A stretch of DNA of 64,000 bases from NCBI RefSeq assembly GCF_003345355.1, contig NZ_QQNB01000001.1:1054001-1118000 (forward strand). The letters are read 5' to 3'. Below the pieces are notes generated by a model. It was not told the DNA's origin and did no database searches. It saw nothing but the letters and a program-made list of their open reading frames with translations. Shown piece after piece: positions 31,759 through 33,150 of the stretch. Position numbers and translations under genes: made by a program. Position 1 is the first letter of the stretch. Every line of letters begins with the position of its first letter. The stretch is from Sphingomonas aracearum. Its GTDB lineage: Bacteria > Pseudomonadota > Alphaproteobacteria > Sphingomonadales > Sphingomonadaceae.

Positions 31759-33150
31759 TCAGTCCGCGAAGAGGAGGACCGGGGTTTCCAGCACGCGCTT
31801 CAGGGCCTGCACGAAGCTTGCCGCGTCCCAGCCGTCGACCACGCGATGGTCGCAGCTGATGGAGAAGTTCATCAGCTTGGCGCGGACGATGTCCTCCCCG
31901 TGGAAAGCCGGCCGCTCGACGATGCGGTTCGGCCCCAGGATGGCGACTTCCGGCCGGTTGATCACCGGCGTGGTGGCGATCCCGCCCAGCGGCCCCAGCG
32001 AGGTGACCGTGATGGTCGAGCCCGACAGTTCGGCCGACGTCGCCTTGCCCGTCCGCGTCGCCTCCGCCAGCCGCCCGATCTCGGTGGCCAGCTGCCAGAC
32101 GTTGCGGCTTTCGGCGTTGCGGATCACCGGCACCATCAGCCCGCCATCGGTCTGCGTCGCCATGCCCAGATGCACCGCACCCGAGCGGGCAACGACGTTC
32201 GCCTCGTCGTCATAGCGCGCATTGAGCATCGGAAAGTCGGGCAGCGTGCGGCAGATCGCGACGATCAGCAGCGGCAGCATGGTCAGCTTCGGCCGTTCTC
32301 CGCGGTTCGCGTTCAGATCGGCGCGCAGCTCCTCCAGCCTGGTGACGTCGATTTCCTCGACATAGGTGAAGTGCGGGATGTGCCGCTTGGCCGCCGCCAT
32401 GTTCTCCGCAATGCGCCGGCGCAGGCCGACCACCTTCACCTGCTCGTCCGCGCGCGTGCGGCTCGCGTGCGGCGCATGGTAGCCCTGCCCGCTGCCATAG
32501 CGCAGGAACGCGTCGAGATCGGCGTGGCGGATGCGCTCGCCCGGCGCGACCTTCACGTCGGCGAGATCGACGCCGAGGTCCCGCGCGCGAGCACGAACGG
32601 CGGGCGAGGCGAGGACGAGCCGATCCCTCTCCCCTTGTGGGAGAGGGAGGGAGCCGCCGGAGGCGGCGGAAGGGTGAGGGGCCGTTTGGGCCACGTCGCC
32701 CGCCTCACTCCCGCTCACCTTCCCACTCGGCGGCGCCGAGCGGGCCCCTTCCTCTCCCACAAGGGGAGAGGAGGCTTGCACCTCTTCCACCCCCGGGTTT
32801 TCCGCCTCGAACTGTTCCTCTTCCGGCTCCTGCGGCGCGGAGGAGACCGCTTCCTCCGGCCGGTCCGTCTCGTCCAGCGGCGCGCTCTCCAGCTCGCCAC
32901 CGGCCGCCGCGTCGGTCTCGATCACCACCAAGGCCGAGCCGATCGGCACCATGTCGCCGACCTCCCCGGCCAGCTCGACGACTGTGCCCGACACGGGAGA
33001 TTCCATCTCCACCGTGGCCTTGTCGGTCATCATGTCGGCGATCTGCTGGTCTTCCTCCACGCGCGCGCCCACGGCGACGTGCCAGGCGACGATCTCCGCC
33101 TCGGAAATGCCTTCGCCGATGTCCGGCAGGCGAAAGGTAAAGCGTGCCAT
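31759..33150 (-). CDS. bkdB: branched-chain 2-oxoacid dehydrogenase E2 (dihydrolipoyl acyltransferase)
   Basis: A 463-residue E2 subunit. The N-terminal lipoyl domain (about 3-80) has the lipoylation site MMTDKATVEM (K44). An acidic linker follows and contains a repeat-derived insert (residues about 127-175). The peripheral-subunit-binding domain is at 179-216 (LASPAVRARARDLGVDL). The acyltransferase domain (about 235-463) ends with SCDHRVVDGW (catalytic H435, D439). It transfers acyl groups from E1 to CoA in breakdown of Val, Leu and Ile. The start at 33150 is set by the lipoyl domain. It is the last gene of the operon, 5 bases after E1 beta. No E3 gene is in the window. Confidence 0.92.
   Translation of the reverse strand: MARFTFRLPDIGEGISEAEIVAWHVAVGARVEEDQQIADMMTDKATVEMESPVSGTVVELAGEVGDMVPIGSALVVIETDAAAGGELESAPLDETDRPEEAVSSAPQEPEEEQFEAENPGVEEVQASSPLVGEEGARSAPPSGKVSGSEAGDVAQTAPHPSAASGGSLPLPQGERDRLVLASPAVRARARDLGVDLADVKVAPGERIRHADLDAFLRYGSGQGYHAPHASRTRADEQVKVVGLRRRIAENMAAAKRHIPHFTYVEEIDVTRLEELRADLNANRGERPKLTMLPLLIVAICRTLPDFPMLNARYDDEANVVARSGAVHLGMATQTDGGLMVPVIRNAESRNVWQLATEIGRLAEATRTGKATSAELSGSTITVTSLGPLGGIATTPVINRPEVAILGPNRIVERPAFHGEDIVRAKLMNFSISCDHRVVDGWDAASFVQALKRVLETPVLLFAD
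32626..32771. repeat. palindromic element inserted in frame in the E2 linker
   Basis: A 21-bp sequence at 32626-32646 (CCTCTCCCCTTGTGGGAG...) occurs again as a perfect inverted repeat at 32751-32771. Two further hairpins lie between them (GCCGCC-GGAGGCGGC and CTCGGCGGCGCCGAG). On the coding strand it reads SSPLVGEEG...SLPLPQGER, composition unlike the acidic linker around it. The ends resemble the intergenic element at 14522. Confidence 0.8.

Follow-up and report, generated by a model that had tools for sequence, protein, structure and literature searches.

A palindromic repeat inside the E2 gene bkdB and its likeness to the joined ends of elements carrying a DUF559 gene

A strongly palindromic DNA segment lies, in frame, inside bkdB, and the locus raises the question of what this segment is, what could have moved it, and how it came to be part of a protein gene. 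The window considered here is the whole stretch of DNA that was analysed (64 kb), which belongs to the genome under study, G000, with contigs C6, C7 and C8; the element in bkdB lies at C6:1086626. The host gene and the segment are as follows:

31759..33150, minus strand: bkdB, encoding the E2 acyltransferase of the 2-oxoacid dehydrogenase complex (463 aa), host of the element; continuous ORF with Pfam support
32626..32771, minus strand: palindromic element of 146 bp, encoding residues 127-175 in frame; perfect 21-bp inverted ends, genome copies at 80-82% identity

The bkdB product contains the Pfam domains Biotin_lipoyl (5-77), E3_binding (179-212) and 2-oxoacid_dh (234-461), and the two ORFs immediately upstream of bkdB on the minus strand are read, from their sequence, as E1-beta and E1-alpha. 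Residues 127-175 fall between the lipoyl and E3-binding domains and the frame is unbroken across them, which agrees with the claim of a preliminary description that the E2 linker tolerates the element; the segment is probably translated as part of E2, since its reading frame is open. Within the element, four smaller features can be distinguished:

32626..32646, strand not given: left 21-bp end, a hairpin by itself, CCTCTCCCCTTGTGGGAGAGG
32751..32771: right 21-bp end, the exact reverse complement of the left end, a hairpin by itself
32653..32667: inner hairpin 1, GCCGCC GGA GGCGGC
32722..32744: inner hairpin 2, CCCACTCGGC GGC GCCGAGCGGG

The perfect 21-bp inverted ends and the two hairpins had been described earlier as lying in frame inside bkdB, and they are present there; the inverted arms of the element reach 54 nt, with 76% complementarity. 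When the 20-mer core was searched with up to 3 mismatches, it was found at just two places in the 64-kb window, namely the two ends of the element, while shuffled sequences gave an expectation of 0. The folding energy of the element strand as RNA is -111.5 kcal/mol, compared with -79.3 ± 4.35 kcal/mol for shuffles (z -7.4), and folding of the same strand as DNA gives a z of -6.5 against shuffles.

The segment had also been taken for a dispersed palindromic repeat, a view borne out by two further full copies in the genome. One complete copy (C7:375270-375405) lies in frame inside ileS, the isoleucyl-tRNA synthetase gene, and the other (C6:682547-682680) is intergenic, between two convergent genes. 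The element in bkdB is 146 bp long and the other two are 134-136 bp; like a REPIN, each of the three is a pair of REP palindromes in inverted orientation, separated by a short spacer. In G018 and G034, the inverted pairs are about 95 bp long. The frame common to bkdB and ileS was considered as a sign of frame choice and discarded: each genic element has three open frames out of six, and therefore the common frame needs no special explanation.

These copies bear on the reading of the locus as the GC-rich coding DNA of an ordinary linker, with a palindrome that is incidental or has been retained for some function of the RNA or the linker. E2 linkers are of low complexity and evolve fast, and the bkdB linker is plain in some relatives (L063, L073), as this reading would have it; it is nevertheless extremely improbable, given that the genome has similar DNA in two unrelated locations, of which one is intergenic, and that the bkdB linker holds an inverted repeat in 20 of 29 species versus 5 of 677 control windows. 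The corresponding figures for the ileS loop are 20 of 30 species versus 5 of 521 control windows, and for both genes the occupancy is biased upward, as the samples were the best-scoring 30 per gene and the queries contained the element. As an account of origin the ordinary-linker reading is refuted by the genome copies, though a function may have been acquired later. The age of the element is another matter. Absence from close relatives, which would mark a recent insertion, was not upheld, as its nearest relatives in the sample (L048, L049) have an element of this type in diverged form; two distant E2 linkers of the order that were readable (L254, L258) are plain, of Pro/Ala/Lys type and without the element.

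The relationship of the segment to other elements becomes clear when its two halves are considered separately:

32624..32680, plus strand: half A, an interrupted triplex-type motif with hairpin CCTCTCCC..GGGAGAGG, inner hairpin and third strand GGGTGAGGGG
32714..32774, minus strand: half B, an inverted second triplex-type motif with inner hairpin

Both halves were defined by a motif scan with a spacer of up to 50, in which they are the sole triplex-type motifs of the window; with a spacer of up to 8 the scan gave no motif of the TM_ECO/PIT type in the window, and matches need the inner hairpin in the second loop. The bkdB element is described here as two interrupted triplex-type motifs in inverted orientation. 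Half A resembles the ends of a DUF559 element at C6:1026814, and half B resembles the end of another at C8:465657 (BLAST match 95-154, 90%). At C6:1026814-1027305 and C8:465657, the same half-ends flank small DUF559 (PF04480) ORFs in the order half A, DUF559, half B, and the flanked ORFs score 93.3 and 125.2 bits against the PF04480 profile, whose curated cut-off is 20.6. Taking the gene out of the C6:1026814 element and joining its two 60-bp ends gives a sequence that agrees with the bkdB element in 102 of 118 aligned positions, and the short elements resemble two DUF559-element ends joined without the gene. The bkdB segment is a palindromic element of a kind associated with DUF559 genes, and it is probably a REPIN-like non-autonomous repeat mobilised by DUF559, with full-length relatives that carry a central DUF559 gene.

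A whole-genome search with PF04480 gave five small DUF559 genes, together with a single larger protein. Inverted palindromes stand on both sides of four of the five small genes and on one side of the fifth; the gene of the larger protein has no flanking palindromes. In the genus, DUF559 was found in 57 of 61 genomes at E<=1e-10, and an inverted palindrome pair, counted at a score of at least 18, occurs at 30 of 35 DUF559 loci (six from this genome, the rest being the best-scoring match of other genomes) and is lacking at 5 of 35, compared with 0 of 360 control positions (0/300 in the window and 0/60 in bkdB loci). Similarly, a scan seeded with sphingomonad DUF559 supplied eighty named loci as its best matches, of which 76 were usable, and a pair was present at 62 of these 76 versus 1 of 559 control positions in the same loci; one further hit, L208, was excluded for a run of N. 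The named loci come from Alpha-, Beta-, Gamma- and Deltaproteobacteria, Chloroflexi, Omnitrophota and others, and the tested DUF559 loci throughout are best-scoring matches and no random draw. The pattern sought in a separate scan combined pyrimidine and purine arms with a mirror-symmetric third strand, the second loop being allowed up to 8 or up to 50. A triplex-type motif was found on at least one side of the DUF559 gene at 81 of 109 loci with short loops and at 104 of 109 with a second loop of up to 50, while single 350-bp control windows contained one in 12 of 835 and 21 of 835 cases, respectively, rates that imply about 3% and 5% expected for two flanks. The two equal-scoring DUF559 genes of G029 were considered as within-genome duplicates and rejected, being of different subfamilies, so that they offer no case of self-duplication of the nuclease gene.

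Nuclease and palindrome also appear to be paired by type. Across 92 loci, the similarity of DUF559 proteins correlates with that of their flanking palindromes (Mantel r=0.25, with 0 of 5000 permutations as high, p=2e-4), and the correlation is weaker outside sphingomonads (r=0.17, p=0.016); these p-values are optimistic because the loci are related by descent, and the pairing, inflated in this way, is support and not proof. Judged by eye, the dispersed copies in about ten genomes match the third-strand base, T or A, of the flanks of their own DUF559 genes, and G004, G010 and G054 hold both the T and the A type.

The DUF559 proteins found here have about 110-150 aa, with invariant residues E26, D54, E65, D67 and H71 and a near-invariant D78. 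Their sequence profile matches 3HRL and also, at E 4e-4, the mobile-intron protein I-Bth0305I. An AlphaFold2 model (mean pLDDT 89.4) superimposes on 3HRL with Z 14.2 and an rmsd of 1.4 over 93 residues, on the homing endonuclease I-Bth0305I with Z 12.1 and 2.5 over 94 residues, and on Vsr with Z 10.2 and 2.3 over 98 residues. By its modelled fold and its conserved acidic and histidine residues, DUF559 is a predicted nuclease of the EDxHD/Vsr fold. The EDxHD family has been described (PMC3943268), and a DUF559 gene has been filed under EDxHD in one paper (PMC9403480). I-Bth0305I is related to DUF559 in fold and sequence and differs from it in being a mobile-intron protein with DNA-binding extensions, whereas the DUF559 proteins are small and palindrome-flanked. 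An alternative role is mismatch repair, which has been proposed for a DUF559 protein of Caulobacter; VsrA of Caulobacter (CCNA_02930) holds a DUF559 domain and has been linked to DNA damage upon methyltransferase deletion (PMC12907096). A defence role was rejected, as the PADLOC matches, to DpdF, are weak (E about 0.006).

Association, pairing of types and fold together point to mobilisation by DUF559, for which the following course can be proposed. The nuclease would recognise its cognate palindrome as a hairpin, triplex or duplex and would nick or cut it, and repair would copy the element into the cut site, preferably where a palindrome already resides; in E2, a stop-free copy in a usable frame would survive, because the site is a flexible linker, and would be translated. 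The same fold lends itself to another reading, in which palindromes that already exist, and have spread by other means, are invaded in their central loop by DUF559 as a homing gene; the bkdB element would then be a target not yet invaded and no deletion derivative. DUF559 does have the EDxHD homing-endonuclease fold, its gene occupies the loop between the two halves, and the fabI-aroC site holds different DUF559 proteins in G000 and G043 and none in G044 and G001. Homing into palindromes is nonetheless unlikely, since it offers no account of how the repeats spread in genomes that lack RAYT and predicts a weaker matching of palindrome and nuclease types than is observed. No clean empty site was found at fabI-aroC, where relatives without the element have other genes. 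In G008 (L241), the DUF559 gene at this site is in pieces and in two frames, and appears to be a decayed copy of the G000 element.

Turning to how the sites are occupied, a palindromic element of some kind is found at the bkdB site in most sampled species, often of another family, and in the ileS loop, too, the palindrome families vary from species to species. In murD, G024 (L244:573-705) and G058 (L245:2481-2637) have palindromes of different families at the same point, both in frame, and the murD flanks of these two close species are 91% and 94.5% identical. In E. coli, the ypfG-tkt site (L221:1500-1545, L222-L227) contains a triplex-type motif in some strains and a BIME-like repeat in others; no clean empty site was found there, as the remaining strains read carry the BIME-like repeat. 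The pairs examined showed neither a transposition event nor a target-site duplication, and none offered a clean empty site. Elements thus seem to replace one another in place at the E2 linker, the ileS loop and murD; replacement in place is the observed pattern, and its mechanism is hypothetical. It is conceivable, though doubtful, that DUF559 nucleases and their palindromes make up a class of mobile DNA of their own, one that crosses phyla and spreads by exchange, with resident palindromes being cut and replaced. If so, replacement would take place even inside essential genes, and a few protein loops would be lasting parking places for changing selfish DNA. Peptides of other repeat families, of VRPEPVEG type and PAEAGAQ/TPAFAGVT type, were also seen in bkdB and ileS loops (L050, L059, L051, L060, L118), and in the ileS loop of G029 (L126) one palindrome is apparently nested within another.

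The closest known parallel in organisation is the REPIN-RAYT system (PMC3116915), in which, as here, inverted doublets of REP-like palindromes are dispersed in the genome, the enzyme gene stands among matching palindromes, and several different enzymes occur per genome; the enzyme there is a Y1 (HuH) transposase, while here it is a DUF559 protein of the EDxHD/Vsr nuclease fold. This inverted doublet architecture is also what would favour mobilisation of the repeats by RAYT/IS200-type transposases, with DUF559 as a bystander. Such mobilisation is highly improbable: a search with the PF01797 profile found no RAYT in G000 or in eight of nine relatives, several of which have the repeats in tens of copies, and at most loci it is DUF559 itself that stands between the palindromes. 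With no cognate RAYT, the bkdB element can therefore be said to work like a RAYT REPIN, not to be one.

In the structure of its halves, the element resembles the TM_ECO/PIT motif (PMC4666352), which is built of a pyrimidine arm, a purine arm and a purine third strand and at times occurs as inverted pairs. The TM_ECO/PIT copies of E. coli are reported to be intergenic, with no mobility gene nearby, whereas the motifs described here are found on the flanks of DUF559 genes and within genes as well, and the bkdB motif differs further in being interrupted by an inner hairpin. It has been reported that the intrastrand triplex motif has 23 copies in E. coli MG1655 and is present in more than 260 genomes, and that its authors never found transposase or integrase remnants around it (PMC4666352). 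E. coli has a DUF559 gene, ycjD, between sapF and fabI, and motifs resembling TM_ECO stand beside it, on the fabI side only, where the strict triplex scan does not score them; of 5426 genomes, 3333 contain at least 80% of the length of the ycjD region. With a linked nuclease of known fold that is present in laboratory E. coli as ycjD, the origin of triplex-type repeats becomes directly testable.

Among the open-access papers listed, which were the part of the literature covered, none was seen to link DUF559 to palindromic repeats, and an earlier description in subscription papers is possible. DUF559 is a first candidate mobilising enzyme for a widespread bacterial repeat family, and its role in mobilisation, if true, would also indicate what this widespread domain of unknown function may do. 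Repeat DNA has repeatedly been taken up into loops of core enzymes, namely E2, IleRS and MurD. In Rickettsia, palindromic elements are inserted in frame. The Rickettsia elements resemble those described here, by description, as palindromic repeats in protein genes (PMC2635572); they differ in belonging to another taxon, and a linked nuclease is identified here. The RU repeats of enterobacteria are likewise MITE-like, have open frames and lie inside annotated genes; they are other repeat families, and the abstract of their description names no linked nuclease (PMC2759123). DUF559 genes with flanking palindromes, which may be a link to the Rickettsia elements, were observed in Rickettsiales bacterium AM-377-L16 (L192, L205).
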